Positions 2,402 to 61,812 of a DNA stretch of 64,000 nucleotides are shown here, in pieces. The notes under the pieces were generated by a model that saw nothing but the letters and a program-made list of their open reading frames with translations, was not told where the DNA came from and did not search any database. Location: assembly GCA_022539475.1 (NCBI GenBank), contig VCMS01000012.1:62001-126000 (forward strand). The letters are read 5' to 3'. The position numbers and the translations under genes are program-made. The first letter of the stretch is position 1, and every line of letters begins with the position of its first letter. This stretch comes from Gracilaria domingensis (lineage: Eukaryota; Rhodophyta; Florideophyceae; Gracilariales; Gracilariaceae).

Positions 2402-3397
2402 CTATCGGCGTCTTACGTATCCGAATCGCTGTAGCTCCACAGCAATGTTGTCTCGTATCATTGATGTTTCTCGACTTCGGTTTCTTGACCGTATGTTATC
2501 TGACTCCATGTGGAGATTGTTCTGTAAATGCACGATCGGTGACCCATGTACACTGTTGTCTACATGGCTTGGAATTGTTTCGAATGAGCTTCCGTCGTCC
2601 ACATCTAATACGAAATTATGCAGCTTGCATGCAACCATAATGATAAGCGTAACTTTGTGCAGGGGGTAGCGAATTGCGGACCAAAAGATGCCGAACCGAC
2701 AGACCAATATACCGAATGCGTGTTCCACCACAGTCCTACAAGAAGACAAGTATGCATTAAAGGAATCTTCCAACCCACTTAAACCTTTCCCCGGATACGG
2801 TGTCAACACTCTGGACTCATTTGAATAAGCGTCATCAGCAGCAACAACAGCCCAACTAGGGAGCTAGGGTCCTTTTAGTAGCTCATACAGTTTCGTAGAT
2901 GAAAACGCAGTAGAATCGTGTGTTCCCCCAGAATGAGTTGCAGACACGAAGCAGAACTTGTAGTCGGCCTGCGCTGCAGCTTGAACGCGGACAGCGAAGA
3001 ACCCTTTTCGATTGAAATACTTCTTAGGATCCTTCACATCACTTCGTTTTGGCTTCGTTATCTCGATCGCGATTCCATCAAGTGCTGCGAGTATACCATA
3101 GATCGGAGATCGCCGCAGCTGACAAAACATATTAGCCTTTTGCGTGCATTCTGCGTGGGTAGTAGGGAAACGAATCTCAGGTAGCAAGGTATCCAATGCA
3201 CACAATGTTTCCTCAAATATGCTGTATACTGTACTGGAACCTATTCCATACGGCCACCATACGTCCAAATAGCTAGCTCCAGCCATAATACGTAGTGTAA
3301 CAAACAAAATTATTTCGACGTTGAGTGCCGTCGAAGCCTGGGTATGATGTCGCTGTGAGCGTTTTAAAAAAGGTCGTACGTCTGTGTTTCCGGGATG
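2402..3397 (-). mobile_element. PIF/Harbinger (HARBI1-like DDE) transposase remnant
   Basis: A single minus-strand frame encodes most of a DDE_Tnp_4-type nuclease. The N-terminal part has FVTLRIMAGASYLDV and GSSTVYSIF (the helix-turn-helix-like region typical of PIF/Harbinger nucleases). The first catalytic Asp is in ALDGIAIEI, the second in AADDAYSNES, and the acidic third residue in VVEHAFGIL. The frame is split by one in-frame TAG at 2866-2864, between the first and second catalytic segments, giving pieces 2864-3397 and 2402-2809. No ATG opens the frame after the TAG near 3398, and the partner Myb/SANT gene and terminal inverted repeats were not found. It is therefore a nearly complete but probably inactive transposase. 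Family assignment is firm and activity is unlikely. Confidence 0.8.
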
Positions 3398-3865: not shown

Positions 3866-5290
3866 CCAATAGATACCCTGAAAATGCTCTCGTTGCCCTC
3901 AATGTAGACATCCCCTTGGTTAGTTTTCTGTTGCCTAGTCTCTTCGTCCATCTCAACATGGAAATAAACACACTTACCTCAACATTCTTCGCCATCTTCA
4001 TCTCCCCAACTCCCTCGAAAACATCTCAACTGCACAATTTCCAGCACCGCCACCGATCCATTGCCATCCAACGCACCTGCACATGCACAAACACAAGCTA
4101 GTCAAATACTCCGTTAGATACGTTTCCATCTTCGAAACTTTCCCAAATGCACACTTATCTACTTACCATGTGTCCCTACCTGACCAATAGCCTCGAAAAC
4201 ACGAATCAAACTGTCCCGAAAATCCTGCACATACACATAAAACAGTAACCAGTTAGCATTCTTATCAGAACTCGAACAAAAAACATCTCGNNNNNNNNNN
4301 NNNNNNNNNNNNNNNNNNNNNNNNNNNNNNNNNNNNNNNNNNNNNNNNNNNNNNNNNNNNNNNNNNNNNNNNNNNNNNNNNNNNNNNNNNNNNNNNNNNN
4401 NNNNNNNNNNNNNNNNNNNNNNNNNNNNNNNNNNNNNNNNNNNNNNNNNNNNNNNNNNNNNNNNNNNNNNNNNNNNNNNNNNNNNNNNNNNNNNNNNNNN
4501 NNNNNNNNNNNNNNNNNNNNNNNNNNNNNNNNNNNNNNNNNNNNNNNNNNNNNNNNNNNNNNNNNNNNNNNNNNNNNNNNNNNNNNNNNNNNNNNNNNNN
4601 NNNNNNNNNNNNNNNNNNNNNNNNNNNNNNNNNNNNNNNNNNNNNNNNNNNNNNNNNNNNNNNNNNNNNNNNNNNNNNNNNNNNNNNNNNNNNNNNNNNN
4701 NNNNNNNNNNNNNCCGCGCAGTCCACATTATCCGCTTAGCTAACTCTTCGCTCTTCGAAACATTCTCAAATGAACACTCATCTACTTACCATGTGTCCCC
4801 TACCTCACCAATACCCTCGACAACACGCATCAAACTGTCCCAAAAGCCCTACGCATACGCATACAACATTATCCAGTTAGCATTCACATCAAAAGTCGAA
4901 CAAAAAGCTCTCAAACTTACCCATAGGCCCCCGCCCAAGACATTCACGCTAACCTGCTTCCAAATCCTCTCCGTGCGTCTCGCAAAATCACGTAACGTTC
5001 CGCAGTTAGACTTCGCAAACACCATCAGCATCAAAAGGTCTCACTTACATTGAACCCATTCAGTACGCATCCCAAACATAAAAAACCTGAACTACTCCGG
5101 TTCCAATCCAAAGATTCCGCACGCTGCAGCTTCATGAACCTGTCGCGCTCATTCTCGCACACAGCCGCCGCCGCGCAAAAACACTGGTCAGAGTCGCGCA
5201 TATTCGCCATATCAAACATTTACGCCTCGACTTACCTGTTTCGCACGTTTCACATCCCAGGACAGGACTCTGAGAGGCAACGCCACTGAA
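3866..5290 (-). CDS. Probable multi-exon gene with short introns and duplicated mini-exons
   Basis: The minus strand has a regular series of strong splice signals. GTAAG donors begin at 5235, 5048, 4920, 4789, 4166 and 3977. Acceptors fit introns of about 50-100 nt, such as 5235-5184, 4920-4849, 4166-4077 and 3977-3878. Several introns carry a CTAAC branch-like motif about 30 nt before the acceptor. Deduced exons are 5183-5049 (135 nt, one open frame), 4848-4790 (59 nt), 4224-4167 (58 nt) and 4076-3978 (99 nt). The 59- and 58-nt exons are near copies: the first reads FWDSLMRVVEGIGEVG and the second FRDSLIRVFEAIGQVG. An N gap (4291-4713) lies between them and may hide more copies. The family is unknown, and the phase does not stay open across all junctions. 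It could be a pseudogene or a spliced non-coding RNA. Confidence 0.4.
4131..4908. repeat. Direct repeat about 155 bp, copies 4131-4285 and 4754-4908, flanking a gap
   Basis: The two copies share most bases, including TTCGAAAC, TCTACTTACCATGTGTCC and CCAGTTAGCATTC, at an offset of about 623 bp. Each copy holds one mini-exon with its donor and the preceding intron of the putative minus-strand spliced gene. The intervening N gap suggests that a tandem array collapsed or failed in assembly. Confidence 0.7.
4291..4713. other. Assembly gap (N)
   Basis: Run of 423 undetermined bases inside the exon-repeat region. Confidence 0.99.
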
Positions 5291-5587: not shown

Positions 5588-8500
5588 ATGCACAACTGTT
5601 GTTTCCCCCGCTGCTCATTCCATACACAGTCCCTCGCCTCTCTCGCCCAGCATCAGAAGCGATGCAGACACAGGACTGACCCAAACCCGTTTCTCACCCC
5701 AACACCTCATCGAGGATCCCACTTCCCTCCCCGAACCAAGCGCCGCAGACTCAACAACACCGAACCCCCTTCCTTCCCCCCCTCTAACCGCCCGTCCGAT
5801 AACGTAGCACTCGCAGACGACGACCCTTATCTCCAGGAACAGCTTGCTCTCTCCCTACGCTCATCCGACGCAGCACAGATACTCAGCCCGCATCACCAAC
5901 TCGCCTCCCAGTCCCCTTCCACAGGCTCAGGTAACGCCTTCTCCCCCTCTCCACCCTCACAGAAAGACCACATCCATAACCTCGTCACCTACATATCCTC
6001 CATCGCCACAAAACTCGGAAAGCGTTCTGCTGACGAGCTCATCAACATTCTCAAGCAATCCACCTTTCCCTCTTCCCTCTTCCAGACCTCCATCACTTCC
6101 GCTGCCGAATGTCTGAAACTGCACTCCAAAATCTTCGAAGAAACAGTCAGCTCCATTGGGTTCACCTCAACCATCATCCATGACAAAAACCATAACTTCT
6201 CCGCCACCCTCTACCTCAGGGACCCCGTTCAGGTTCTCCTACAACAACTTCGTCTCGCATCCCACAGCAACTCCTTCTTTCATCCAGTCAAACAAGCTTC
6301 AAGAACAGGAACTACCGCAATCGCACACCCTATGGCTTCGGAACTCGGCCGCCATGTCGTCCCGACTATCAAGAGGCATATCATGCATTCTCCGGACCCC
6401 GACGTCATCTGGCACGATCCCAGTATCACCGGCACAGACTCGTTCGTCGGCCTCGTTCAACTATATTCAGACAAGTCTTCCACCTCTTTGAAAAGTTCTT
6501 CTGTTACGTCGTATCCTCTTCACATCACCCTCCTCAATTTCAATGACTCCTTCCGCAGAAAGTGCATCACGCAGAACTACACACTCGTCGGATACATACC
6601 CACATCCTTCACCTCCGACTCGTCCTCCACTGACACAGATTCCTTGGAAGTCGCTCCCTCAACCCCCAGCGTGACCCGCATTGTGCGCATGCAGCTCGTC
6701 CAGGAGTCCCTAGAAACCATCCTCAAACCTCTGTATCATATCGGTATGAAGGGTTTTCCCTTCCGCGACGCCAAAGGAGTCCTTCGTCAATGCCATCCAG
6801 TCATCTCCAACTACAGCGCTGACATCCCCGAAGCCAAGGACATTCTCGCAGTACTTCATGGCACAAAGCCAAGCAAACCCTGCCACCGGTGTCTCCTCCC
6901 TCGTTCAAAACTCAACCTCTACCAACCTACTCTCACAGAGCGAACCCTCTCACACACTTTGCAAACCAGAAAAAGACATGATGACCTACTTCTCGAGGCA
7001 GATTCTGCTCTCCTCTCCCATAGACCACGGGTTGCAAGGAACCTCAAAGAAGAAGCTGCAGAACTTCTCCACTCCACCTCTCTCTCTCCATACAAGTCCT
7101 TTCTGGAATCTTACCCTCTTCTCAACATCTCTTCACTGCTCACTCCTTATTCAATCTTCTCCTTCGAGCCCCTTCACAACTTTCACCTTGGCATCTCTAA
7201 ACTCATCAAACTCGCCACAATCGAACGCCTGAAGTCCGATTCTCTTCACACTTCCGTGGGCTTCAATGGATCCTCCAGGTCGTTTCGGTCCATCAGAACA
7301 TCTATTCTTACTCACGCCAACTCCATCCTAGCTGACATCGAACGCTCGTTTCCGGCTCCAGGGCTTCATATTGATTTCTCGACATCTGAAAAGGGTAAGT
7401 CTCTCAACGGCTTCTTCACCACTGACGGAATCAGAGGCATGCTAGAAGCAAAGGACTATCGCGCCCTGGACATGGTCTTCCCCTTCATCGGTGCATTCTT
7501 CGACCGTTGCTGCGGTGAAGTATCTCCCGCCCCAATAACCACCATTTTCACCTCTTACGTCGATCTCGTCAATAACGTTCTTCACTACCACACTGCCCCA
7601 GAATGGACTGATGATCGCTTACGCTCTTTGGAGACTCTCATCAAGAACTTCAAGACTCAAACTGTCTCAGTTTTGGGTCCATACCAGGCATCCAACTTTC
7701 GTACTCTCAAATTCCATCTCCTGGATCACATCATTCCAGACATCCGTCGATACGGAGGCCTCCATTTCGGTGATGCAGGTGTGTACGAGCACGCGCATCT
7801 CCTGTTCAAGAACCACTACCGCCGTACCTCTCGCAGAAGATCAACTGCGCATAAGGAAACAGTGGACTCAATCCAAGAGTCGCAAGATTTCTTACACTCC
7901 ATCTCGGTAAGGAAACACTTCTCCATGTCTACCAACTCGGCCAGTCGTTTGTCGCAGCGGTGTCCCTCCATGGTTCGTGATGGTAGTTCATTCTCCCTCT
8001 TCGACATCATCACGGCCGACAAGTATCTACGGTCCCATCCAAACGTCCCGTCATCTGCTCTCACAGATTTGTTCTCCAAAACTACATTGCAGTTCATCAA
8101 CCAAATCTCTCGCGACGCCCTCTCTTCCTTCCGTACCCTAAGCTTAGAAACTCTTCAACCGTTGGACAACCCCCATGACATCAAAATCACCGTCGTTAAC
8201 TCCGCTTACATTGTTTCTGGATTCTGCCCCTCGCTGGATGACTACGATCGTCACTTTCAATGCATTAGACTGCGAGAGCCGGAGGTCTCTTTGTGTGAAC
8301 GTATTTTTGCAACCACTTCTTTCGGCCCTTCCAAGTCCCCAAAATTCTCTACCGTCCTGGTTAATGGAACTCCTCCTCCCGGTTGTGACTTCCCGACCGC
8401 ATGGGTATGCAAAGTCTTTGCCCTGGTTCGCTTTAGCAGATGTAACCAAAGCAATTCCGATTCTGAATTTGCCTTTGTTCGCTTCTTCGAGGTAACGGAG

Positions 8501-8806
8501 CCGTTGGATAACATTGACGAATCCTTGAACTGCATTTCCCTCCGCTGGGCCACGGATGACGAGGAAGATCACACATTGCAAACCTCCAATTCTCTAAAAC
8601 GGTCAACAACTGCATCTGTATCCCCATGGTTCGGTCTCGTCCCATTCTCTTCGATCAAAGGCTCGGTACACATCCTCCGACAAAACTATCCCGCACGCCC
8701 CTTTTTCCCTCCATTGCACTGGAAGTTCCACCGATTCTACATTAACAGATTCTATCGCAATCCCCGAGCTCGTGTACACTACCATCCAATCACCAAACTT
8801 TCGTAA
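5588..8806 (+). mobile_element. Plavaka-like DNA transposase, intact 1072-aa ORF
   Basis: An uninterrupted 1072-residue frame starts at ATG 5588. It opens with a Cys/His cluster resembling a zinc finger (CCFPRC, then LAQHQKRC). The core has features of the Plavaka group of large cut-and-paste transposases known best from fungi: LYSDKSSTSL followed by YPLHITLLN, a VGYIPTSF segment, PEAKDILAVLHGTKPSKPC with a CHRCLLPRSK cluster, FEPLHNFHLGISK, and GDAGVYEHAHLLFKNHYR near the presumed last acidic residue. Family knowledge places Plavaka near CACTA/EnSpm or the KDZ transposons. The opposed ORFs at 8823-11374 end 17 bp away, which suggests a two-gene convergent element. Terminal inverted repeats and target duplications were not found. 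No stops or frameshifts were seen, so the ORF looks capable of making full protein. Confidence 0.8.
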
Positions 8807-8822: not shown

Positions 8823-9848
8823 TTAGTGACGTTCTATCCAATTCTCCTCATGTAATCCTTCTTGCACAGACCTTTCCCTCATATCCCTCTCTGCAGTTAT
8901 GTCGTAGAACATACGGTCTCCCCGACTGCAGCATCCAACATAGCAATCCAGTACAGCTCCGAGCTTCTCAGAGATCTCTCCCATAAACACATCTTCTCGG
9001 ACAGCAAGGTACATTTTCCTTTTCGACGGAATCCAGTAAACCACAGTGCCCACCCGGTCATCATTTCCATGCCGCGCATCTTCAGCATTCGATGGGCCAT
9101 TTCTGAACTCTGTTGGATAACTCTGCTGCATGCGGACCCTCACGGTCTTCAGTATACTCTCAAGTGCCAGTGGTAGATATTTCCCGAACAAGTTGGAGAA
9201 CAACACTTGTCTCTTACCACCTCTCCCTCGTTCAGACTCTGTCGCGCGAACAACGGACGCTATCCAGGCATCAAGACGTGCCAGATGCATAATTGTTCCA
9301 TCCACTGGATCCCTCTCTTCGGTATTCCTCGAACTTGTTTGTAAAACGTCGTAGCCCATGAACTCACGCAGCACCTCCAAGCTCAGGCTGTTCCGAAAAA
9401 GCAAGTCACATGGTTCATCTTCGGTTGCATGATATGGGTTAAAGCCCGAGAAACATATATCTTCTACCTTCTGAGTTCTCCACGACGACAGAATCTCACA
9501 TCCATTTGCATCTTCGGGTAGGAGTTTTTCACGTACCTCTCTGGTTTGTATTTCATACTTGTTCTGCTCCATTTCATCATTTTTTATCGGGGTCCTTACA
9601 AGCATGTCGTAACCTAGTCCCATCAATAACTTCTCCTTCGCATGGCGTTTTCGAACACCTATTGCATCACTTAAAGCCTGTTTCAACCTTCTGCGCAAAC
9701 AAATGTCGTGCGTTAACTGTTTCACACAGTCATCTTCCATTTTCATTCCTCGGATAGATTCCCAACGTGGCTTCATTACCTCCGTCTCCACAATTTGCAT
9801 CAACAAATGGTCGCCTCCACCACGTACGGATGGCGTGTACGCCCTCAT
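8823..9848 (-). CDS. Accessory ORF B beside Plavaka-like transposase (341 aa)
   Basis: This open frame begins at an ATG that overlaps the stop of the upstream ORF (ATGA at 9848-9845) and ends 17 bp from the transposase stop in convergent orientation. The product is rich in charged residues. Segments include LTHDICLRRRLKQALSDAIG, GFNPYHATEDEPCDLLFRN and VGTVVYWIPSKRKMYLAVRE. No known domain was recognised. It may be the C-terminal half of one protein with the 509-aa ORF, split by a frame change, or a separate cistron reached by termination-reinitiation. Compact convergent packing with the transposase suggests it is an accessory gene of the same element, which is inference. Confidence 0.6.
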   Translation of the reverse strand: MRAYTPSVRGGGDHLLMQIVETEVMKPRWESIRGMKMEDDCVKQLTHDICLRRRLKQALSDAIGVRKRHAKEKLLMGLGYDMLVRTPIKNDEMEQNKYEIQTREVREKLLPEDANGCEILSSWRTQKVEDICFSGFNPYHATEDEPCDLLFRNSLSLEVLREFMGYDVLQTSSRNTEERDPVDGTIMHLARLDAWIASVVRATESERGRGGKRQVLFSNLFGKYLPLALESILKTVRVRMQQSYPTEFRNGPSNAEDARHGNDDRVGTVVYWIPSKRKMYLAVREDVFMGEISEKLGAVLDCYVGCCSRGDRMFYDITAERDMRERSVQEGLHEENWIERH

Positions 9849-11374
9849 TCCATGGCAAGATCCATTGGGCACCGTGGCACTATCTCCTTCCCATCAACAA
9901 CCAGCACACTGTCGTCTTTCTCAGGTCCAACTGTCTCACTTCGGTTGCCCCAGTTCCTTGCCGGTATACTCATCTCGAAGCATAGCTCTCTTGTCTCGTC
10001 TTTGGCGTATTGAAGTATGGAGTCATAGACGGTCTTCGCAACACCAACAAACTCGTCGTTCACGTCAATGTTGTACCGCTTCCTGCTCTTGTTACTGTCA
10101 CGTTCGTTCCTTTTCCCTCCACGTCTGAGAGCCTCTCTCAAAGAGTGTATGAGAACCTCTTGTTCTCTGACCTTAACCTCCAGTTGCTCTATGTTCTTCT
10201 GAGCAAGTCGTACGCTCATTTTCAGACTTTGCTTGTCCTCTATTGTACGATACAGATCTCCCTTCAGTTTCCCGATCTTTTCCAAAAGCTCGTATCGCGG
10301 AGTAAGGGATTCATCTTCATCTTCTTCCATTGCACCATGCAGGGAAAAGCTCCGTGACAAAGCACCACGATCAACATCTTTATCGTTCCATACTTCTCTA
10401 CGGGCGTTTGCTATGACAGGTTGCCGATCGTTCCCCACCCGTCTATTCTCATTTCCATGGTTCGTCCTTCTTCTGACCTGATTGAACCTGTTTCTCTGTG
10501 ACTCACCTGTGACTGGTGTCGGTTGTATCTCGTTTTCGTCTTCGTCTTCCTTGTGTCTGGACCCAATATGAGGGACGGAATCATGCCTGCCTTCGATGGG
10601 AGCCATATGCGTTGCATTTCCGGCGTCCACGTTGTCGTTCGCCTCCACGTTATCCTTGTCCTCGACGTCACTTGGGATATCTACTGCGTCCGTGGACTCC
10701 CGCTCCTTTCTTCCACTGCCTTTCTTGGCACGAGAGACACCCTCATTCATTTTCTCGTTCCTCTTCACTTTTCTCGAATCATAACTGTTACGTTCTGTTC
10801 CGGCAGCGCTTCTGGGTATCTCCCTATCCCCAGGTTCGGCTCTAGGTTCGGCTCTCACGATGGCGCAATCCACGGTTTCCATCTCCGCATTGTCATCCGC
10901 AGTTCTCACCTTGTCGAAACAATCATCGATACGAGGACCTTCTGTTCCTCCACTGCCTCTTGTCCTCCTTACATTCTGACGTACAGCCGTTCTTCTCTTA
11001 TTTCCTTTCATCGCTTTGATATCTACATTTCCATCATCACTGACCCTTGGCTCTTCCATTGCAGCCATGTGGCGTGTAACAGGCCCACGCATTGCACTAT
11101 CCTTGGCTTGAACGGTTTCACTTACTGTGCGTTCCGTAGTGCATGTGGAAGCTCCTGACCTCCTTCTCGGTTTTACTTCCGATACTGTAGATGAAGATTT
11201 TGGTTTGCGAAGTCCAGCACGAGGTGCTCGGCCTCGGCTACCTCTCCCATTAGTAGCACTACTTCGTGAGACGACCGCGCTCCTACGTTTGGCCACCCCA
11301 GTATCCCAGCGCTCCGGCGGTACCGATGCCTTTCGCGGTTTACCACCTGCATGCTCCGCACGTTGAGGAGCCAT
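9845..11374 (-). CDS. Accessory ORF A beside Plavaka-like transposase (509 aa, basic and coiled coil)
   Basis: The frame opens with a clear ATG (MAPQRAEHAGG). Residues 1 to about 330 are low-complexity, very basic and Arg/Lys/Glu-rich, as in disordered nuclear or nucleic-acid-binding proteins. Residues of about 345-410 form a likely coiled coil (YELLEKIGKLKGDLYRTIED, then KVREQEVLIHSLREALRR). A short conserved-looking C-terminus, NDEFVGVAKTVYDSILQYAKD, follows. It is immediately upstream of and overlaps the 341-aa ORF. No family was recognised. Position and orientation fit an accessory protein of the neighbouring Plavaka-like transposon, but no shared termini prove it. Confidence 0.6.
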   Translation of the reverse strand: MAPQRAEHAGGKPRKASVPPERWDTGVAKRRSAVVSRSSATNGRGSRGRAPRAGLRKPKSSSTVSEVKPRRRSGASTCTTERTVSETVQAKDSAMRGPVTRHMAAMEEPRVSDDGNVDIKAMKGNKRRTAVRQNVRRTRGSGGTEGPRIDDCFDKVRTADDNAEMETVDCAIVRAEPRAEPGDREIPRSAAGTERNSYDSRKVKRNEKMNEGVSRAKKGSGRKERESTDAVDIPSDVEDKDNVEANDNVDAGNATHMAPIEGRHDSVPHIGSRHKEDEDENEIQPTPVTGESQRNRFNQVRRRTNHGNENRRVGNDRQPVIANARREVWNDKDVDRGALSRSFSLHGAMEEDEDESLTPRYELLEKIGKLKGDLYRTIEDKQSLKMSVRLAQKNIEQLEVKVREQEVLIHSLREALRRGGKRNERDSNKSRKRYNIDVNDEFVGVAKTVYDSILQYAKDETRELCFEMSIPARNWGNRSETVGPEKDDSVLVVDGKEIVPRCPMDLAME

Positions 11375-11837: not shown

Positions 11838-14800
11838 CTAGGTTAACCTTTCCCAAGGATATGTGGGTCCATAGTCAACGTAAATTTCGTCGTGCTCCTT
11901 AATGTCCCTTGAGGCCGTGACTACGAGGAGTCTGTAGTTCTCCAAAAGCCCCAAAGTTGTAGCCTGATACTCTGTGGGCTGGCGAATGAATACATTTGGT
12001 TTGCGTGCCATGTTAGAATCCATTTCTTCCAATTCCTTGTCCTCATCACCTTCACGATATGACGCGTCATTGATATAGCCCGCTACACAGAAAGGAGCAG
12101 GAACTATCCAGGCATGACCAGCGTTGACTTCAGTATCATAATGCGGGAGAGTGTTGTACATTTGCCCCTTCAGCCTCACTTGCATGCAATACTTCCTGAA
12201 CCGAGATGCAGTGGCCCCCAGCATTCCGTCTCCATACGTCAAATGTGTGGTATTGCGTCGGCTTAGATCATGATACACCAAGGTCCCATAAAAGTATCCA
12301 ATAACCTCCCCTTCGGAAAACGCCCTACTCGTAAATACTCCATTTCCACTTGCTGCATGTTTGATATTCGACTTCTTCACATAGAGCCATAGCGATGTCG
12401 CCTCGACAGAGAGTAAAGTGTGACTGTCCAACGTAGTCATCTTCCCTTGTAAGGCAAGTGGCCACTCATGGAACGGTTTCTCTTTGTACGTAGTGATAAG
12501 ACCAGGTTCATTCCAATAGGTGGATAGGTACGACATGATATGGAATGGGAAAGATTGGTACGATGGGAATCCCTTGGGTGCATTCCATATAGTCGAAGTC
12601 TTTCGTTTCCGTTCAGGAAATTTGGCATCCACCACATAAGACGCTTGAACTACCTCATTCGTAACCGGTTCTTTCATCTTCAATTCATTGCGCCACACCT
12701 TTCTTGCGTAATGCACAATAGCATTGTGCTTGGCATGAGAGAAACACTGCTCATCTTGCTCACATCCAATGAAACGCCGAGGCCCCTCAATATCCATACA
12801 TGCCAGCGCGCACGAGAACGTCCCGGAGTAGAGATCAACCACAACATCCCCGGGATTCGAGAACCTCGCTATCAGCTCCATCAGTAGTTGCCTCGACTTT
12901 TGTTCTGGACGAGCGTTCGCGGTTCGAATTCTTCTACCACTCTTCACTCTCCATCGGAGACTCTCCCCAGGCGTAAGATTTGGAACCTGGTCAATGATAG
13001 AATAGTGCCCAGGATAGCGAGCTGAAACGTAGTTGAAGTTCTGATAGTTCACCATTACCTTCTGTTCCGCGTACGGGTTTCCATTCCTCACGCCATGCAC
13101 GGCGTACTCCGTCGCCCCAAACAGGCGAGTAGTATTACGCGCAGGGTTCTTCAAGGGGTTCGAACGAGAACGAATGAAGTTCATGGGCGTCGAATCCACT
13201 AAGAATGATGCGGTTTTCTTTCCGCTTGCGTCCTCCGACTTGTGCTCTCGCAAAATCTCTTCCCAGTCTCCAAACTGGTCGATACTGCAGAACAAAACGA
13301 AATGTCCTCCTGGTCGAAGCATGGATGCCATGATGTCCGCAGTATTGTCCATATCATCGTCAGCCAATTCGTCGTACTCGCTGTCGCGGATGCCATATGG
13401 TGGGTCTGTGAGCACGAACTGAACGTTGCCTTCCAAAGATGTATCCGATGGGAAGATAGTACCATGAGCCTCCACCAGTTCGTCATATCCGACACAATGC
13501 ATTGAGAATTGCTTCTCCATGCTTCCTCGCACCATATCTAGAGCATTTAACGTGCGCGTGTCATCAAAGTCATGAGGGGGGAGAACCCCATCTGGAACGT
13601 TATCTTTCGCCCCAACAGAGGCACCAGGTGTATCACCTTCTTCATTGTCGCTATCGAGAATGACGATGACATCGGAGTTAACTGAGCTTTTCCCTGCGGC
13701 GTTCCTCTTGGAGGAGCTCGGAATCTGTATCGAGTCCTCAACCTTAACCGTGACGGTATTACTTCCTCCATCCTGCTCTGAAGGAGCGGCCCTAGGGATA
13801 AGTCGAGATGGTTGGAGGTTATGTACAGACATCGCTTGACGAATAGAAGACACGTACTCTTTGGAGAATACATTGAAACGGGGTGGTACTCGTGCGGGGC
13901 GGCCAGGTCTGAAGCTTTCCAACAAATTCCATCTTGACGTTGGGGACATTTTGTATAGGAAGCCATTCAACACAATCTTGCTGACATCTGCCAAGAATTC
14001 CTTTGCCAACTCCCGTAAGTTGGCGTCGATAGTATCCGGAAGAGTATGAACCCAAGAAACGGTGTCGGTCACATCCAACGTGGGTTTCAGTTCTTCCCCC
14101 AACGTATGAAAAGCTGACTCCGGACTGTACCCAACAGAGCGGGATTCAATGACATGGAACCCAAGCGACTTCTTTTCTACAAGCAGGTATGGCAGCAACA
14201 TCTGCTCACCATCACCAAAGCCTAAGGTTGAGGCAAAGAAATCCCATCCCTTACAAATCGTTTGCACTGCATGTGCCATCCGTCTCCCGTGCGTCTCATT
14301 CGAAGCTATGTAGCCGTCGACGAACTGCACAGCTCTATGGGTTCCCTTCCCGGTCTTTCCTCTCTTCGCCGCTGGGAGATTTCTCTCCGAAGTTATATGC
14401 TTCACGAAAGAGAGATAGAGTAACTGCTGAAAACGAGTGGGAGGCCCAATCCTGAACGTAGTTCTCTTCGTCTGCTTACTGCCTGGACCATGTCGTTTGA
14501 AAAGGTCATTCCAGAAAGCCCGTTCTATGAACGAGCTACCGTTGTCGACATCCTTTTCAAGACTCCAGGTAAACAAATCTCTCACGCGCCGATCAGAATT
14601 CTCGTCGTCTAGATCAGTGATACGCGTATATTTGTAGACCCTGCTCAGAAAACGCACGTCCAGACAGATCTTCGTGACTTCTTTTGCGGAGTAGTTTTGG
14701 AAAGGACCCTTGACCGCAGTGGTGATGAACTCTCGTGCACATGCCAGGTGTTCACGGTTTGATACAGCGTATTCCACAATTTCCGTGTACCCAACTTCAC

Positions 14801-15005
14801 GCGGATTACCAGTACCACTTCTTGAAGCGGCATACGCATCTCGCAACTCAATGAACAACCCCCAACATTTCAAGAAACGCGTTGCCATGCTGGCTGAATC
14901 GAACGACGCGCTAGAGGATGCGCTAGAGGATACCGTGCCGTGGTTCTCATCGGCCAGCACACTCTGCTTAACAGTCCGAGGAGCGTCATTTCCGGTGGAC
15001 GCCAT
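11838..15005 (-). CDS. Fused amino-DNA methyltransferase and SET-domain protein (1055 aa)
   Basis: One intact frame starts at ATG 15005; further open frame upstream lacks an ATG. Residues 1 to about 440 match nothing I recognise. Residues of about 445-452 (DVIVILDSD) look like a SUMO-interacting motif followed by acidic residues. The methyltransferase has motif IV DPPY at residues 534-537 (VLTDPPYGIRD) and a motif-I-like glycine segment DLYSGTFSCALACM at about 724, then FIGCEQDEQCF. The order IV-then-I is that of beta-class N6-adenine or N4-cytosine DNA methyltransferases. A SET domain fills about 880-1050: GNGVFTSRAFSEGEVIGYFYG, AGYIND in place of the usual NHS segment, and DEIYVDYGPTYPW at the end. 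The likely role is nuclear, with S-adenosylmethionine-dependent methylation of DNA and of a protein lysine (inference). It is divergent from the ParB-dioxygenase gene across a fold-back element. Confidence 0.75.
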   Translation of the reverse strand: MASTGNDAPRTVKQSVLADENHGTVSSSASSSASFDSASMATRFLKCWGLFIELRDAYAASRSGTGNPREVGYTEIVEYAVSNREHLACAREFITTAVKGPFQNYSAKEVTKICLDVRFLSRVYKYTRITDLDDENSDRRVRDLFTWSLEKDVDNGSSFIERAFWNDLFKRHGPGSKQTKRTTFRIGPPTRFQQLLYLSFVKHITSERNLPAAKRGKTGKGTHRAVQFVDGYIASNETHGRRMAHAVQTICKGWDFFASTLGFGDGEQMLLPYLLVEKKSLGFHVIESRSVGYSPESAFHTLGEELKPTLDVTDTVSWVHTLPDTIDANLRELAKEFLADVSKIVLNGFLYKMSPTSRWNLLESFRPGRPARVPPRFNVFSKEYVSSIRQAMSVHNLQPSRLIPRAAPSEQDGGSNTVTVKVEDSIQIPSSSKRNAAGKSSVNSDVIVILDSDNEEGDTPGASVGAKDNVPDGVLPPHDFDDTRTLNALDMVRGSMEKQFSMHCVGYDELVEAHGTIFPSDTSLEGNVQFVLTDPPYGIRDSEYDELADDDMDNTADIMASMLRPGGHFVLFCSIDQFGDWEEILREHKSEDASGKKTASFLVDSTPMNFIRSRSNPLKNPARNTTRLFGATEYAVHGVRNGNPYAEQKVMVNYQNFNYVSARYPGHYSIIDQVPNLTPGESLRWRVKSGRRIRTANARPEQKSRQLLMELIARFSNPGDVVVDLYSGTFSCALACMDIEGPRRFIGCEQDEQCFSHAKHNAIVHYARKVWRNELKMKEPVTNEVVQASYVVDAKFPERKRKTSTIWNAPKGFPSYQSFPFHIMSYLSTYWNEPGLITTYKEKPFHEWPLALQGKMTTLDSHTLLSVEATSLWLYVKKSNIKHAASGNGVFTSRAFSEGEVIGYFYGTLVYHDLSRRNTTHLTYGDGMLGATASRFRKYCMQVRLKGQMYNTLPHYDTEVNAGHAWIVPAPFCVAGYINDASYREGDEDKELEEMDSNMARKPNVFIRQPTEYQATTLGLLENYRLLVVTASRDIKEHDEIYVDYGPTYPWERLT

Positions 15006-15285: not shown

Positions 15286-15915
15286 CATCTTTGAACATCG
15301 CCCGAGCGCGGTGTGGGAACCGCGGTTCGCCGAGTTCATAGCCGAGATCATAGCTATGATCTCGGCTATGAACTCGGCGAACCGCGGTTCCGGCACGGCG
15401 CATCTGACGAAACGCCACGTGTATACCGCCGAAAGACCCCCCCTGAGGACCCCCTGGAGACCACTTCTACTACACAATGCGCACCAAAGCACCTGTTCTC
15501 ACCCACACCACCACTACCTGGTGGTGTTGCTGGCGTTTATATGGGCAGTGAATAAGTGACGCCCCGTCGATGGCCGCCGCCCTCCGTGCGCTGCTCCGCT
15601 CCCACCGCATCGTCTCTCCTCCTCAAGCCCTTCCCCTCCGTCTTCCACGCTTGCTACACAATGTGTCCGAAGTGTCATCCGCGTCTCCATCGCTCTCCCG
15701 TTTATTCGACGTCACTGCCCACATAAACGCCAGCAAGGGGTCCTCCAGGGGGGTCATCAGGGGGGTCCTTTCGGCGGTATACACGTGGCGTTTCGTCAGA
15801 TGCGCCGTGCCGGAACCGCGGTCGCGAGTTCATAGCCGAGATCATAGCTATGATCTCGGCTATGAACTCGGCGAACCGCGGTTCCCACACGGCGCTCGGG
15901 CGATGTTCAAAGATG
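15286..15915. repeat. Fold-back/MITE-like element with nested palindromes (about 630 bp)
   Basis: The ends are exact inverted copies starting CATCTTTGAACATCGCCCGAG on the plus strand at 15286 and mirrored to 15915. The arms (about 15286-15455 and 15740-15915) each contain a palindrome. The left one, 15316-15391, is a perfect 76-bp palindrome centred on AGCT. The right one, 15812-15885, is nearly perfect. An inner inverted pair (GCTGGCGTTTATATGGGCAGTG near 15528, mirrored near 15715) extends the arms. There is no credible ORF, and no clear target duplication (flanks TTCGTA and ATGAAA). It fits a Foldback-type non-autonomous element and lies in the shared upstream region of two divergent genes. 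Confidence 0.8.
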
Positions 15916-16165
15916 ATGAAAGGCGGGGACAGTGGTCAACCAGGACGGAATCAGACATTGATCCAACCATTTATAACCATCAGGAACTGTACCCACACTG
16001 CTCACGTGGGCATTGCAGCCGTTTTGAACGTGAGTGGTTGCGTCCATTGTGCTCACGCGAGAAAGGGCGGAGATTCGAACACGAGCGGTTGCAACTTCAC
16101 GGGAGCAAACGTACGATTTGAAGAACACCAGGACTCGTGTATATCACACACACTGGCACCATATA

Positions 16166-19100
16166 ATGGATATGAGGGGACTGGGAAAGGGTCAAATGAG
16201 ACGCTCTCGAAAGGTGAGAAAGCCTCGACGAACCATGGCACCACAACTTCGGAGCGGGACCAGAACTGCTGAACCGAACGCAGCGACGGGGAACGCATCC
16301 ACAGCTATGAAGTCGAAGCCCGCACCAGGCGAAGAAGTGACCTTGTTGTTGGGAGGGGCAGGAGGGAACAAAGCAGCGATTGGGAAAGCTGTTCTCGTTG
16401 AAGTGGACGCTGGTGGAGGGAAGACAACGTTCAGAAGGGAAATGCATGGACATGCTCTGCAGGGAAAACCAGGGGAAGATGTAGTTGGTATATGGCGAGC
16501 GAAGATATCTCATGAGCTTGACACTCCCTATCCCTATCTCTTTAAGTGTACCGATGAAGATTCTGTTCCGAAGACATTGAAGGACATGAACAGGCCCGGT
16601 TTCTACGCCTGGGACCTGAACTTAATGTCTAAGGTGGGTGACGTCGTAAGCGCTGATGAAGGAGACAAGGGTGCTCCGAGTTCCAAATTCGTCGCCCCTG
16701 AGAAGCCATCGAATACTGCTGGGAAACGGGTGCGAGTTGTAGAACCTAAAACTCCATCCAGTGCCCGAAAGCGAATGGAGATGAAAGTGGCTCATGTGAA
16801 AACCCCGTCGAATGCTAAAAAACCCCAAGGCGGGAAACAAGCGCCAGTACCAAAGCTGAAAACACCATCGAACGTTCACGGTGGTGGAAAGCAGATGCAA
16901 GAATTCAAGATGACCACGACCCCAGAGAGTGCTGTATCGGCATTTCGTAAACAAACTGCTACGATTGTGCAGTCTGGAGCATCGAGGAACAGCACTGCGG
17001 AAGCTATTACTCAGGCTGGAAATCGCAGTGGAGTGACAATGGAAGTGATTGACGTGGATGAAGACGAAGACGAAGACGTGGTTCTAGTGAAGGAAAGCCT
17101 TGGAAGCAACGTCAATGAACTCTTTGATGAAGGTGATGTGATACCTCCTGATGATGTCGATACGAGTTTAGCGAGTTTGGTATTTGACTTAGATCATTAC
17201 GAGTATGTGTCTGTTCAAGTCGATATTGAGCTCATTCAAGTTCCGGAAATGACTGTGAGAGGGTTGTTCCGGAATCATGTCGAGGCTCTGAAAGAAGAGA
17301 TTGGACGCAAAAGCTTCTTACAGGCACTTGGGACCATGAGCGTTGCTGTTCTGTCTCAGGATGTGTCCGAGAAGGACATAGTGCAGAACAATCGCTTGAA
17401 AGTGAATGTGTGCTGATTGATGGAGCTCATCGTTATGTAGCACTCAAAGAGCTCTGTGAATCTATGCCCAACATTAGGAATCTATGTGAGGTCTTTCTGT
17501 TTCGCTGTGGAAGAGAAAAGATGGACAGAAGATGACCACGAGGGAAATCTTGAGCCTTGGCAATGTGCTAAACGATGGATTGAAGCAAGCTCGTCTTATG
17601 GGTTTTGCTGACAAGGTGCATTCTATTGTGTCATTTATAAGGGTCCTGGTTGAGGAAGAGAAGAAGGACTTGAGCAAGATGACGAGGACCTCTGTCGCAG
17701 GTGCACTAAGTGTTTGCGGTATCATTGGCCAGTACAATATCAAGCATTTGGCAAGATTTGCAGAGATGGGGTTGAAGGTGGCGAGAAGTCCTGGATTGCT
17801 GGAACATTTGGAGCGGATTTGTGGGGACTACCATGAGATTGGAATTTCTTGTATATCAAGTGATGAATTCTTTACCATGGATGAGCATACAACCCACTTC
17901 ACGCTCGACGCTCTGGTTGCATACTTTTCCAGGAGGCGAGTGTCGAAACTGACGGGTCGTTTTGAAGACGTACGCAAATACTTCTTTATCTGCTGCAGGA
18001 GGCTTCAATCTTTGCCAGAGGAGCTTTCGAAGAAGAAGAAAGTTACATTGGAAGAAGCGTATGCCATGAAGGTGGAAGTGACAAAGTTTGAAATGCGCAC
18101 CGTTCGTGAGTACCTTGCAACACAGGCAGCACGAATTGATGTACCTTCGAATAAGAAGCTCTGGGAAGGAAGGATTTCGAGAAGAATCTGGATTGCTCGT
18201 GATAAGCTGGCAAAGAGTTTAGGGGTGGATATGTTGAAACCTGCCACTGGTACTACGCCGACTGAAACACAGTCTGAGACCAAAGCGGTAGACGAGTCTA
18301 CAACGCAGAGAATGGCCACACGTTCGGCAAGTAGGAAGGCCAAAGCGCCAGTGCGCAAGGGCTCTAAGGACTCTGATGTAGAAAGTGAAGAGAATATGCC
18401 ATCGAAGACAAGAAGCATGAGGAGTTCAAGACGAAGCCGTCGACGAAGGAATGCAATGAGAGACGTGAACCCTAATCAACGGAAGAAGTCAAGGACGGAG
18501 GGTATTCAATCTGTTCACAATGAAGTTATCAGTCATCTGCGGAGTCTTGGTGCGAAGGGGGTGAGAAACTTGTTGAAAAGTCATCAGATATCCATTGGCA
18601 GCGACACAGACTCAGATGGAGTACCAATTGTGGTCTCACAGGCAGAGGACACTGACCCGTTCGATGACACAGTACCGCAGGTGTTGGCGCCAGGTCTGAA
18701 GAAGGCTGAAGAAGTAGCATATGAAGGTGACGATTCGTGGCTAAAGTTGGTGAAGACCTTACCAAGCAAGTGGCCGACTGGAGTGGAGAATGTCATTAAA
18801 TCTGTGTACCCGTGGATGGATGCGATACATCTCCAGAAGCAACACCGAGGCCACTTGTTGGAGCCCAAGGACTTTGAAAGTGTGCACCATGCAGTCTTTT
18901 GGCATGCAGCGTATCATGGCCATAAACTCCTGAACGCGGCAATGGGAGGCATGGAGGTCGACGAGAAGACGTTATGGGGGGATGCACTGAAGAACGACTC
19001 TCTTGCGTATGTCTATTTTGTGAAGAAGAACGTCGAGCTTCGAGAGAGAGGTTTCTGTATTCTGGACGGCTTTGCATCGGATGGAGAGTTGGTGAAGCTG

Positions 19101-20010
19101 ACAGAGAGTTTGAGCAAGCTCATTGACGGGGATGTTAGTGTGGAATTACTGGACTTCTTCCGAAGGGACTTCGAGAGGGCTCCAGACCTTAGGATACCAG
19201 AGAACCGAATCACATGGATACCGATCATCAACGCAGATGGTGGGAGGTACATGACTACGAGAAGAGGCATAGTGGATGACATGGAGGCAGCCGTAGAAAG
19301 ACATGTGCTTGTGAAGAAGAGAGCTTTACTGGATGCCCGACTGGGACAGATATGTGCTTTAATGGGTTTACAAGATAATAGGGTGGAAAAGGAGAGGATG
19401 TATGCGCCGAAGACGGGGGGAGGGTGTTATGCACTGCAGTTGGATGCAAGCGGCAGCAGTTACATACGGATTTCCCGACCTTGGCGAATGAGGATAAGCT
19501 GGAAGAAAAGAAGAACCCGGGGTACTTTATGATGGTGTCCGGAAGTGTGTCGTTTCCAATTTGGGTATGTGAAGGGTCTCATACACACTACGCAGTTACT
19601 CCCAAGGCATTTGAAGGTTTGGCACGGGGGATGTTTGTGAGGAAGTTTTTCGTTCCGCCTAAGTCTATATTTATTGGAAGAGGTGATGTGTTCCATGCAG
19701 GCGCTTCAAATGAGGATGGAAGATTCCCGAGATTCCCTTGTTTCGTTACCACATGTACATGGTACCTGAGAAATACAACCTCCCAGATGCGGTACACCTT
19801 AACCCACACTTTCGACCTCAGTTCAAGGAGGATGAAGACCTGGTTAGTATGAAGGAGAAGAGGAAGAATCCAGAACCGTCGAATTTGGAGGAGGAGAATG
19901 ATGAAATGATAGTAGAGGAAGGGGAAGAACAGTATGAAGAAGATGACGAAGATGAGAATTATGAAGTGGAGGAGATTGAAAACGATCTTGAGGATGGCGA
20001 AGAAGACTGA
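16166..20010 (+). pseudogene. ParB/sulfiredoxin-like protein with C-terminal candidate Fe(II)/2OG dioxygenase domain, broken
   Basis: The gene starts at ATG 16166 with a basic tail containing three KTPS-type repeats (KTPSSARK, KTPSNAKK, KTPSNV) and an acidic SUMO-interaction-like EVIDVDEDEDED near residue 293. A ParB/Srx-like domain follows (VDIELIQVPEMTVR, then VLIDGAHRYVALKEL, then GQKMTTREILSLGNVLNDG). A long middle part with a basic SRRSRRRR stretch precedes a C-terminal domain with LHTDF (HxD), GRGDVFHAGAS (second His) and RYHMYMVP (Arg), the residue set of Fe(II)/2-oxoglutarate dioxygenases, and then an acidic tail. The reading frame changes about four times: about twice in the ParB domain and twice in the dioxygenase. 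It is therefore decayed or error-rich. The large open piece is 17532-19532. The function could be DNA or protein oxidation, which is inference. Confidence 0.6.
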
Positions 20011-22929: not shown

Positions 22930-23337
22930 TTGAGGTGATACAGTAGTTGCCGGGTTGACGGAGGTAGAAAAGCGTGGGGGATTGGATGTGCGCAACTACC
23001 ATTTCATGAATGTTGTACTAGCCAGAGTTAGTTTACATTCATTATTTGTGTTTATTTGCAATCGACAAGTATGCAAGTGCCGTTGGTAGCTTCCAGATCG
23101 AGCTACCACCTAATCCGTCTGAGTATACTAGGTACAAAAACTTTCATGTCATGGAGGTGAACTAGCAATTATGTCCGCTTTCACTCATTCTAAAAATTCT
23201 GTAGTATTGCTTGAATAAATGAAAGTATGGTATCCAAAAAAATTTTTTTTTGGCTTGCACATAGCCGTACATTCAATTCTTTGCACATTTTTAACGATTC
23301 AATCCACAAAATAGCATTCTAGCCTCTTGGACATAGC
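22930..23337. other. AT-rich spacer
   Basis: No gene seen. Contains an AAAAAAATTTTTTTTT tract near 23237. Confidence 0.4.
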
Positions 23338-23895
23338 GTTCCGGAAACACAGACGTGGGTTGTAAGGTCGCGTGCTTTACTTGATGTTCGAATGGGTACA
23401 ATTGCTGCGGCTTTGGGACTATGGGACAATGAAAGGGAAGCTGTGAAGATGTACACTCCGAAAACTGGTGGTCGATTTCTGGGGACGACGAGAAAGTGCA
23501 AGCGCCAGACGCTGCACACCGACTTCAGTAGTCTGGTTACGAAGGAAAATATGAATACTGGCAACCCCGGATACTTTGTAATGGCCTCTGGGAAAGAGGG
23601 CTTTCCTCTCTGGGTGAGCGCTGGAAGCCATCAACTGGTGGGGATGAACAACCAACAGTTGCGAGTGATGTCGGAGGTGTATCCAGCGAAGAAGATAATT
23701 ATCCCACCGTACTCTGTATTCGTGGGCCGTGGTGATGTGACACATGCTGGAGCAAGTGGGAAGGACAAGGTGGATAGGCCCGAGTCTATGGATTTGCTGG
23801 TTAGATACCACATGTACATGGTACCAGAGGGCTACGCACTACCTGATGCTGTTCATCGGGTGCGGGATTTCCGACCCACGGTTTGTCAATGGTGA
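23338..23895 (+). pseudogene. Truncated second copy of the candidate dioxygenase domain
   Basis: This open frame corresponds only to the last ~190 residues of the ParB-dioxygenase gene. It shares RALLDVRMG (RALLDARLG in the long copy), DNEREAVKMYTPKTGGR, KCKRQTLHTDF, NPGYFVMASG, FVGRGDVTHAGAS and RYHMYMVPEGYALPDAVH. The presumed metal and 2-oxoglutarate ligands (HxD, second His about 76 residues later, Arg about 20 further) are all present, and unlike in the long copy this part lies in one frame. It lacks any ATG at a sensible N-terminus and has none of the upstream domains, so it is a 5'-truncated duplicate. An acidic tail is encoded just after, in another frame, to about 24050. Confidence 0.65.
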
Positions 23896-24374
23896 CGAGG
23901 AGGAGGAGGCGGAGGATGAACTGTTGTCCGATAAGGAGGGTGGGCGGTTGACATGGACGAAGACCAAGTGGTCGTGGAGATTGGTGTGGAAGCGGACGCC
24001 GGTAGAACCGAAGTGCTCGAGAGTAGTAGTGATGACGATTTGCCAATAATGAGGCTGCGAGCGCCTCGAAGTGGATGAGAATGAGATGATTAGTAAATTA
24101 TGTGTGTCTTGCGAGTATTAAGAGTAGTATACTATTACAAGGCTATACATATGAACATAGAAAAGGTGCGGCAGGCTGGTAATTGAACAAATGTCAAACG
24201 TCTTTGCGTCCAGTTGCGTCTAATTGCAACATGCCAAATGCTCGGTATCGTTAGCATCATTGGTGGCACCAGTCAATTCGCAATTGAACATGTATCGTCC
24301 TAACATTCTGAAACTGCACTTAAGGTTGCTTTTAAGAGAAGTGTGAAACTGAGAAGTCTATACAGTTCCTGTCT
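23896..24374. other. Spacer, nothing recognised
   Basis: The acidic-tail coding trace of the dioxygenase copy is followed by AT-rich DNA with no gene seen. TTGCGTC/TTGCGTCTAATTGC-like short repeats occur near 24200-24230. Confidence 0.35.
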
Positions 24375-25231
24375 ATGCGGTACTTGTGCAGTATGGTGAC
24401 TGTATCAGGAAAAATGGCAGAGGAACAGAGAGACTTGGCGGAAATTTCACCAAATACCTTGTCTAAGTTCATATATGCCAATGGTTACGGTATATTAAGT
24501 TCCGTTGATGGAACGTTGAGAAGAGAAGGAGAGTCAATTCCAGAAGAAGTTGTGAAGTGTATGAAGTCATTGACGAACGTGTTGGTTTCGGACTTGTCAC
24601 AGGGGGTGATGTGGGCGATGTGGAGGGGAAAATGGAAGGACTCGGAGACTATAAGTTTGGTGTCTCGGCGAATCATGGAGCTTTCCTGCGTTTCTCTGAC
24701 GAGAGGAAATTAAGGGTGCATTCAATGATCACACCCTTGACCACACTGTTGACGGACTACTGTTCCTGGCAAGGGATTTGAATAGGAGGCATGGTATTGT
24801 GAATGATGATGACAAGGGGTTCGTGGAGACCAGAAGTGATAGTGGCCTTCCCAATTTCGTGTACAACAAACTGTGCAGTGGAAAGAAGAAGTGGATTCTG
24901 CTATTGGGACCTGTTGCAGAAGATGGATGCGTTTGTTATCTATCCCGGCGATAAAAGTTGCGAAATTGTGGACAAGCGATACACAAAAGGAAGCGGAGGA
25001 GAAAATCTTGTGGATAATGAACCGTGATTTATTGATACGGATGACGTCGTGACGTTCGGAAGTGCTTTGAGCGACGGGCCTTTGCATGAGGTAGGCGTGT
25101 ACGGCGTTCACGTCAAAGAAGATTGTATCCCGGGTGGAGTACACAACCTGTTCGAAAGCGTGGAGGATGTACATTCGATAATTATGTTGGTGGCTCTGTT
25201 GTACGGCTACGAGGAAAAAGCAGCACGATAA
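24375..25231 (+). pseudogene. HAD-superfamily phosphatase pseudogene, copy 1
   Basis: Starts at ATG 24375 or, better by comparison with copy 2, at the internal MVTVSGKMAEE. HAD motif I is visible in altered form (LSSVDGTLRREGESIP, where copy 2 has SDVDGTLKRAGEHIP). The middle is spread over two other frames (FGVSANHGAFLRFSDERK, then KKWILLLGPVAEDG). The end, FGSALSDGPLHEVGVYGVHVKED with EDVHSIIMLVALLYGY, is the motif IV region of Cof-type (HAD-IIB) phosphatases. At least two frame changes and the altered motif I Asp mark it as non-functional. Copy 2 lies tail-to-tail 70 bp downstream. Confidence 0.6.
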
Positions 25232-25301: not shown

Positions 25302-26232
25302 CTAAGTATTAAACGCATCGTAGCACTTGAAACAAATTCCAAGAGGCATTTCTAAACCATGACACTTGCATTTTCTGTACCCGTACAGTTCTGCCGCCCT
25401 TCTGATGGTCTCATGCACGTCCTCCACCCCATCAACAAGATATGTTACCGCTGCTGGATGGTCTTCTCCCTTCACATGAACTGCCAGGGTTGCCATTTCA
25501 TATAGAGGGCCATCATTGGAAGCATTCCCGAAAGCAACGATTAAATGTGTCTCGAACTGGGGGGTCGTTTTCAACCAAGGCTAGCGCCCCCACTATTTTT
25601 CGTGAAACGAATGTCCCCTATGTCACAGTTTTCATCTTGAGGGTAACGCAACCAGGTTCGGAAAGGATGTCAACAACTTTGAAAAATACCGGAGTTAATT
25701 CTGTTTCCACTCGACAGTCCATGGACGTGAAGTTAGGGAGGGTCACTGTCTTTTCTAGTGGTCCCAAAACCCCCCAAAACCTGCTTTTTTCGTTGGGGGG
25801 GGAGACCGCTTTCTGTCGTGAAGTCCATGCGGATTCCATTTAGGAGAGTGCAAGTCTCTCAAGTTCGCTGCACATGTTTTGTAGCCTTTCCCTGTCAAGG
25901 TCCTGATCAATTGTCAGGATACCAATGCGATAATACTCACCCGTGACCCTTGGTTTCCAGAGATGCCAAAAGCTATGTGCCACCAAGGTGAGGCTCCATG
26001 AAAACTCTCGGGACATCCTCATATATCTCGCCGTAGCAATCCAGAACCAACGCGTGCGTGGATGTACTTCATGCATTTGACTGATTTCGGCAGGAATGTG
26101 CTCCCCAGCTCTTTTCAGAGTACCGTCAACATCACTAATCAACGGCGTAAGCCACTTTTTGGAACTATTTCCGTTAGTCAGCTGCTGAGGAGTTACTTCT
26201 TGGGCCTCTAACTTCTGAGTGAAGTATACCAT
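25302..26232 (-). pseudogene. HAD-superfamily phosphatase pseudogene, copy 2 (inverted)
   Basis: Starts at ATG 26232 (MVYFTQKLEAQEV). Motif I is intact as LISDVDGTLKRAGEH. Motif II may lie near RWFWIATARYM. The middle (TVTLPNFTSMDCRVETELTP) and the motif IV end (LIVAFGNASNDGPLYEMA, VHVKGEDHPAAV, EDVHETIRRAAELYGYRKC) lie in other frames, so the gene is broken by two or more frame changes plus a stop near 25618. The C-terminus adds a Cys-rich KCKCHGLEMPLGICFKC tail absent from copy 1. HAD-IIB enzymes hydrolyse sugar phosphates or similar metabolites. Neither copy can make a full enzyme as sequenced. Confidence 0.6.
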
Positions 26233-31314: not shown

Positions 31315-31595
31315 TATGGTACACGGCAGTATGAAGCGCGTGCTCAGCAAACGTTGCAGAGAGCTACGCTGTCGTCTCCTTGGTCCTTGGATGGGCAAAC
31401 AGAGCAGGGAAGAAGTCGGTTCCCCCGTCTGGTCCCCCTCGCCTCCTCCGGGCGGGGCCAGACGCCGTCTCGTTCATTCTAGACCCCGTTCTACCGCTCT
31501 CGGAGCCCCTCGTCAGCTCTCGAGCAGCGGGAGATCAGTGAACCTCACGCGAACTGCGAGCAGCCCGCGCGTGTACAATTGTACACATAGCCACA
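31315..31595 (-). repeat. 3' LTR of the copia element
   Basis: 281 bp, direct copy of 38768-39048. In element orientation it begins TGTGGCTATG and ends GTGTACCATA. It contains the short palindrome GTGTACAATTGTACAC. Confidence 0.9.
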
Positions 31596-33870: not shown

Positions 33871-33915
33871 AAAGTTTACCTCTCAGATCTTGAGACTAAG
33901 AAAGCATTTCTCGGC

Positions 33916-37424: not shown

Positions 37425-37447
37425 ATTTGGGGCTCCACGCCTTATTA

Positions 37448-38740: not shown

Positions 38741-38767
38741 TGACAGCGTTGGCTCTGGGCTCATAAA

Positions 38768-39048: not shown

Positions 39049-39053
39049 CGTAT

Positions 39054-61810: not shown

Positions 61811-61812
61811 CC

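Follow-up and report, generated by a model that had tools for sequence, protein, structure and literature searches.

An open reading frame joining a predicted DNA amino-methyltransferase and a SET domain beside a Plavaka transposase in Gracilaria domingensis

Does one polypeptide at this locus join a writer of DNA methylation to a writer of protein methylation, and does its gene belong to the host or to a mobile element? The question was raised by an open reading frame (ORF) at positions 11838-15005 of a 64,000-nucleotide stretch of Gracilaria domingensis DNA (contig VCMS01000012.1, positions 62,001 to 126,000), hereafter the window. A reading made from the sequence alone had seen in this ORF an amino-methyltransferase (MTase) fused to a SET domain. 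DNA and histone methylation are usually coupled via separate reader and writer proteins, and a natural fusion of both writers, if true, would link the two marks directly and allow the link to be tested in a single protein. Both domains were found by profile searches in one frame, with a transposase nearby. We read the fusion gene, as a possibility rather than a probability, as cargo carried by a large DNA transposon of the Plavaka type or by its remnant, encoding a two-headed methyltransferase in a eukaryotic-looking genome. The features of the fusion gene are as follows.

11838..15005, minus strand: MTase-SET fusion ORF, 1055 aa (ORF scan and translation), with the frame staying open upstream as far as a TTG at 15122
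13638..13670, minus strand: SUMO-interaction-like motif VIVILDSDNEE, residues 446-456, N-terminal of the MTase domain (regular expression only)
12729..13424, minus strand: beta-class amino-methyltransferase domain, residues 528-759 (Pfam PF01555, PHROG 67, AlphaFold2 model and Foldseek)
13395..13406, minus strand: catalytic motif IV, DPPY, residues 534-537 (sequence and alignment)
12810..12836, minus strand: motif I, atypical, DLYSGTFSC, residues 724-732 (alignment with 42 related enzymes)
11868..12347, minus strand: SET domain, residues 887-1046, with GNGVF near its start and DYG at its end (Pfam PF00856; separate SET profile against shuffles)

The frame runs from an ATG at 15005 to a stop at 11838-11840 and holds 1055 codons with no internal stop and no run of N; counted from the TTG at 15122 it has 1094 residues. 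Among 200 sequences of 9 kb simulated with a first-order Markov model, the maximum stop-free run was 292 codons (mean 169). Each of the five alternative frames of the same stretch is interrupted by 28 to 60 stops. The N-terminal region, the MTase half and the SET half were similar in composition by codon position. In the linker (residues 760-880) the GC content at codon position 1 was 0.45 compared to 0.52 overall, which neither proves nor excludes an in-frame intron. The region preceding the MTase domain is about 500 aa long and carries VIVILDSDNEE, which we take to follow the SUMO-interaction consensus and, presumably, to serve that function. The sequence-only reading had described a single intact frame of 1055 residues with DPPY at 534-537, a motif-I-like stretch at about 724 and the C-terminal end YVDYGPTYPW, and each of these was recovered in the translation. 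Its position was also right, and the strand, which is minus, had been left unstated.

The MTase half matched Pfam N6_N4_Mtase (PF01555) with an E value of 1.4e-14 and a score of 55.1 bits (cut-off 26.7), over positions 1-220 of the 221 in the profile. The Pfam search was run on the 1094-residue frame, in which the raw residue numbers are 39 larger than in the 1055-aa numbering used here. The fusion protein also matched the phage DNA methyltransferase family PHROG 67 (E 1.5e-25), and a single-sequence search of the PDB returned M1.HpyAVI (deposited as DpnA; E 3.3e-6) and CcrM (E 0.0012). The catalytic motif, of the form [DNS]PP[YFW], precedes the S-adenosylmethionine (SAM) motif I, with DPPY at 534-537 and motif I at 724, which is the beta-class order. 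An AlphaFold2 (AF2) model of residues 496-1055 was built from an alignment with 34 MTases of IMG/VR. Its mean predicted local distance difference test score (pLDDT) was 48.5 and its predicted TM-score (pTM) 0.45, and the central blocks of the MTase reached pLDDT values of 77-92. When the model was compared with the PDB by Foldseek (E up to 0.001), 38 of 38 matches were DNA amino-methyltransferases, with M1.HpyAVI first (E 9e-8), then M.BceJIV, MboIIA and CcrM, and with the rotifer N4CMT (8s9o, 8s9m, 8s9n) lower; for ranks 1-38 the TM-scores by target length, 0.41-0.68, were modest. Because the alignment itself contained MTases, this result is a fit and not a homology-independent proof.

Relatives of the MTase half were reached only by alignments with bacterial-type MTases, in viral and prokaryotic contigs. 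These alignments found them in at least 128 of 600 stretches of viral contigs and in at least 119 of 588 stretches of genome contigs, and the best 80 were used in each case. Among the 80 loci from IMG/VR, an ORF with a start was obtained for 78, and 42 were kept (DPPY, at least 180 aa), of which 34 entered the structure alignment; all 42 rows carry DPPY because it was the selection criterion. For the phage enzymes 229 records matched, and 8 of the 25 rows listed were retrieved and 7 aligned. The MTase tree comprised 84 rows, namely the query and 83 of 165 loci matched by blastp (D[PV]PY, less than 340 aa). The query formed a long branch with 2.57 changes per column, at a position without resolution. 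The highest identity in this set was 31% over 208 columns, to the IMG/VR enzyme L018, which has a similar SNP stretch. In the query this stretch reads RSNPLKNPARN and resembles KSNPMPRN, which was found in 7 of the 83 rows, all within one 13-row cluster (support 100/96); the likeness is a hint of kinship only.

The SET half matched Pfam PF00856 with an E value of 2.5e-6 and 28.3 bits against a cut-off of 22.4, over the whole profile (1-105 of 105). A separate SET profile was built on 14 SET ORFs from bacteria of a single phylum, picked out of 31 SET loci by a SET regular expression; PF00856 was present in 52 of 199 genomes of this phylum, that of genome G002 (titled Planctomycetaceae and holding locus L142). 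With this profile the fusion protein scored 20.8 bits, the sum of two stretches (7.5 + 10.3), while 999 shuffles scored 4.9 at most. The conserved halves GNGVF and SRDIKEHDEIYVDYG lie about 110 residues apart, and the motifs GxG (GNGVF) and DYG align with the bacterial SETs. Where most bacterial rows have the asparagine motif NHS, the fusion reads IND by eye, at a position left unaligned by MAFFT. Searches by other routes gave less: phmmer against the PDB found SETD8 as the best match of the SET half (E 0.15, by itself not significant), the SET protein had one match in the 199 genomes of one phylum (E 0.009, in a frame with two stops), and residues 871-909 weakly matched an NCBIfam effector model (E 0.22, below the cut-off). 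No SET relatives were found in plasmids or phages by tblastn with E up to 1. In the AF2 model pLDDT was below 50 across most of the SET part, and the alignment held MTases and no SET rows.

The length of the ORF, far above the null, and the two Pfam domains in one frame support the two-headed part of our reading. The sequence-only reading had proposed profile searches of both halves and structure prediction. The profile searches upheld both its beta-class MTase and its SET-like C-terminal domain above the curated cut-offs, the latter also over the shuffle control, and structure prediction modelled the core blocks of the MTase half as a DNA amino-methyltransferase. It had missed what adjoins the fusion, a Plavaka transposase and a compact cluster of uninterrupted ORFs, which are listed here with the hairpin and the paralogous genes.

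5588..8806, plus strand: Plavaka transposase ORF, 1072 aa (Pfam PF18759, E 5.9e-24)
8823..9872, minus strand: ORF of 349 aa, no family, tail-to-tail with the transposase ORF across a 16-bp gap
9845..11374, minus strand: ORF of 509 aa that looks coiled-coil-like by eye and has no family above cut-off
15286..15915, no strand: 630-bp hairpin between divergent ORFs, with termini CATC...GATG and inverted arms that align over 183 columns at 95%
16034..17416, plus strand: ORF of 460 aa, no family above cut-off, with MEVIDVDEDEDED at residue 338, SUMO-interaction-like as are fusion residues 446-456
17532..20007, plus strand: gene copy 1 with the pattern HTD...GRGDVxHAGAS...RYHMYMVP, across three frames (decay or sequence error)
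23323..23892, plus strand: paralogue of gene copy 1, core only

The Plavaka profile PF18759 was matched with 85.3 bits against a cut-off of 26.3, over positions 108-316 of 325. The transposase ORF lies 3 kb from the fusion ORF, and the two ORFs in between are on the strand of the fusion. Six uninterrupted ORFs, 349 to 1094 codons long, are packed in 5.6-19.5 kb. This number of uninterrupted ORFs and the 16-bp packing beside the transposase support the reading as transposon cargo.

The hairpin, in which palindromes of 96 columns are nested, may act as a regulatory centre or may be a non-autonomous element. No target-site duplication (TSD) was seen at it. Plavaka elements are described as ending in TGT..ACA or CATCA..TGATG (PMC12730594). 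The presence of such termini with a TSD of 2-3 bp around the cluster served as the test for a Plavaka element. The internal hairpin starts with CATC and ends with GATG, a resemblance to CATCA..TGATG that is suggestive only. The GC skew was -0.43 at 4-6 kb, -0.05 at 14-16 kb and +0.33 at 22-24 kb, and it peaked at 28-30 kb with +0.46. Its sign switches near 15.5 kb, close to the hairpin, and the trend spans 4000-31300, ending about at the start of a Copia element.

Both paralogues carry HTD, GSH, GRGDVxHAGAS and RYHMYMVP. They share 53% amino acid identity over 157 codons, with saturated silent differences (pS) and a nonsynonymous divergence (dN) of 0.44, which indicates a long period of selection on both at the protein level. 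The frame changes of copy 1, one of which lies close to six consecutive G, may stem from sequence error or from decay. By eye, we take the HxD...H...R pattern to recall 2-oxoglutarate-Fe(II) dioxygenases of the TET/JBP- or AlkB-like kind, without support from a library, the PDB or a model: no match in Pfam, NCBIfam, PHROG or the PDB pointed to a double-stranded beta-helix family or fold, and the AF2 model had a mean pLDDT of 31. The best PDB profile match of the gene was to bone morphogenetic proteins, which was rejected as chance (E 0.92).

Elsewhere the window encodes protein O-mannosyltransferase, WD40, kinase and Copia reverse transcriptase genes, and from this content the genome looks eukaryotic. 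There were no tRNA or Rfam matches in the window. A Harbinger-type DDE_Tnp_4 transposase lies in two pieces on the minus strand at 2405-3397, and a Copia-type long terminal repeat element at 31315-39049 has 282-bp direct repeats that are 98% identical and a reverse transcriptase at 33916-35292. At 24336-24710 and 25843-26349, on opposite strands, lie two short stretches that are paralogous (60% over 20 residues), the second of which weakly resembles a HAD hydrolase, below the cut-off. Two opposed ORFs at 43915-44919 and 45228-45887 are 30% alike over 200 columns and have no family above cut-off. From 54000 to 64000 the GC content is 59-73%, compared to 40-54% elsewhere in the window, and this part holds kinase, GRAM, hydrolase and beta-galactosidase genes.

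If the fusion gene is transposon cargo, its predicted MTase half, of phage or bacterial type, would write N6-methyladenine on the DNA of the element. Adenine is suggested over N4-cytosine by DPPY, since the rotifer N4CMT and most bacterial N4-cytosine enzymes carry SPPY (PMC8885841). DNA methylation by this half is likely but unproven. The predicted SET-type lysine methyltransferase half would methylate a nearby chromatin protein, and because the halves are tethered, the two marks would be placed at the same site. The likely beneficiary would be the element, which could label its own copies and so escape host silencing or time its transposition, in parallel with proposals for other transposon-borne modifiers. 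The bacterial-type DNA mark and the SET writer would then join the tools with which mobile elements deal with host silencing. The neighbourhood makes the stronger story, that of a possible mobile element whose modifier gene joins two kinds of writer. A wider version is decidedly unlikely in our view: a large eukaryotic transposon, mobile, self-contained and independent of the host 5-methylcytosine machinery, in which one enzyme writes DNA adenine and chromatin lysine methylation at the same site and the adjoining oxygenase-like genes perhaps remove the marks.

Several observations weigh against an active two-headed enzyme carried by a transposon, the first group of them bearing on the element. 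A blastn self-comparison of 1-32 kb showed no terminal inverted repeats bounding the cluster, which has N gaps on both sides (4291-4713 and 27909-28150), and the best long-range inverted pair besides the hairpin was 23 bp at 91% (E 0.17). The proportion of G at codon position 3 was 0.14 in the Plavaka ORF compared to 0.29 in the fusion ORF. The fusion occurs only once in the window, searches of the viral and genome contigs (which hold viruses and prokaryotes) confirmed no relative of it, and the frame-broken first paralogue may mean that the cluster is decaying. Given no terminal repeats around the cluster and no TSD at the hairpin, we call the locus "Plavaka-associated" and not a defined element. 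The lack of detected ends in 1-32 kb would suit a gene of the host, either domesticated or resident for a long time, that simply lies beside an unrelated Plavaka copy and other transposons. The Harbinger-type (2405-3397) and Copia (31315-39049) elements close by point the same way, since they make the neighbourhood transposon-rich anyway. However, the tight tail-to-tail packing with the transposase and the published large intron-poor Plavaka clusters (PMC11244446) argue against this, and we regard a host gene as rather unlikely. It is very improbable that the single ORF is a misreading of two separate genes, of an assembly chimera, of a pseudogene or of an in-frame intron that was retained. 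The lower position-1 GC of the linker and the broken frame of the neighbouring gene at 17532-20007 would favour such a misreading, but 1055 codons without a stop or an N are far beyond the Markov null, and in other respects the parts share a similar composition by codon position.

The remaining points on this side concern catalysis by the MTase half. The second glycine of motif I, which is G in 40 of 42 related enzymes, is F in the fusion; two places further on there is C where 42 of 42 have T; and HPTQKP reads RPEQKS. The full usual consensus of GSG[ST]T and HPTQKP is thus not matched (GTFSC, RPEQKS), although it is common and not strictly defining, and some relatives deviate from it. These substitutions, together with the long branch of 2.57 changes per column, would favour a non-catalytic MTase half acting as a DNA- or methyl-DNA-binding module that delivers the SET half, which would make the protein a DNA-targeted lysine methyltransferase. 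Against such a module, the aspartate and the first glycine of motif I are retained, as are DPPY, a later acidic residue and the QK of HPTQKP. Moreover, L002, from Aeromonas phage phiA047, has F at the same glycine (DFTAGSFTTG), so that the substitution is not obviously fatal, and two of the 42 others lack G there. We consider the non-catalytic module unlikely. The proposal of the sequence-only reading that one polypeptide might place marks jointly on DNA and on a chromatin protein kept both of its domains and its single frame; since the SAM-binding loop and HPTQKP are substituted, the joint marking is still something that we infer.

The same reading knew of no standard family with this architecture. 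In the literature searched (titles and abstract openings, with few subscription journals covered) no paper on an amino-MTase/SET fusion was found, and in genomes the statement extends to viral and prokaryotic collections only. Single-protein queries of the viral contigs, which like those of the genome contigs reach close relatives only, confirmed no relative of the fusion, its MTase half, its SET half, the HxD...H...R gene or the Plavaka ORF. The pattern F[IVLF]GCExDxxCF, of a kind that may occur in eukaryotic proteins, had 0 occurrences in the viral contigs and does not count as evidence. The fusion is thus new to the literature and to the viral and prokaryotic genome collections searched.

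Among known systems, M1.HpyAVI, M.BceJIV, MboIIA, CcrM and the phage MTases share with the fusion the order of DPPY before the SAM motif, the whole Pfam profile and the fold. The fusion differs from them in its altered motif I and HPTQKP and in two extra residues before R-F-I-G, and compared with beta-class N6-adenine MTases it adds a 500-aa N-terminal region and SET. The bdelloid rotifer N4CMT, described as a bacterial amino-MTase (N6_N4_Mtase) with a chromodomain that marks rotifer transposons (PMC8885841), is likewise a eukaryotic capture of such an enzyme fused to a chromatin domain, and it is among the fold matches; it has a histone reader and SPPY, whereas the fusion has a SET writer domain and DPPY and adjoins a transposase. 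TET/JBP genes are reported by Kojima 2025 in eleven fungal transposon lineages, Plavaka and Kyakuja included, and SET genes in the oomycete HarbingerS and MuDR transposon families are cited in the same paper (PMC12730594). These likewise place an epigenetic modifier in the neighbourhood of a DNA transposon, while here the DNA-MTase and SET are in one polypeptide and no element ends were found in 1-32 kb. Retrotransposons carrying DNMTs and DIRS elements carrying Dam-like adenine MTases (PMC5890265) are also mobile elements with their own DNA methyltransferase; in contrast to them, the present case would involve a DNA transposon, a beta-class enzyme and a SET fusion. The Amoebidium "Plavaka giant repeats" reach up to 50 kb with intron-poor genes, many of which match only distant lineages, dinoflagellates and red algae among them (PMC11244446). 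They present the same large intron-poor cluster with a Plavaka transposase but have many tyrosine recombinase genes, of which there were none among the subset of window ORFs given to Pfam. By analogy, the TET/JBP, SET, DNMT and Dam-like MTase transposons and the Plavaka giant repeats offer precedents for the reading as cargo; each type of writer is known separately in transposons, and what is new to the literature and collections searched is their combination in one polypeptide.

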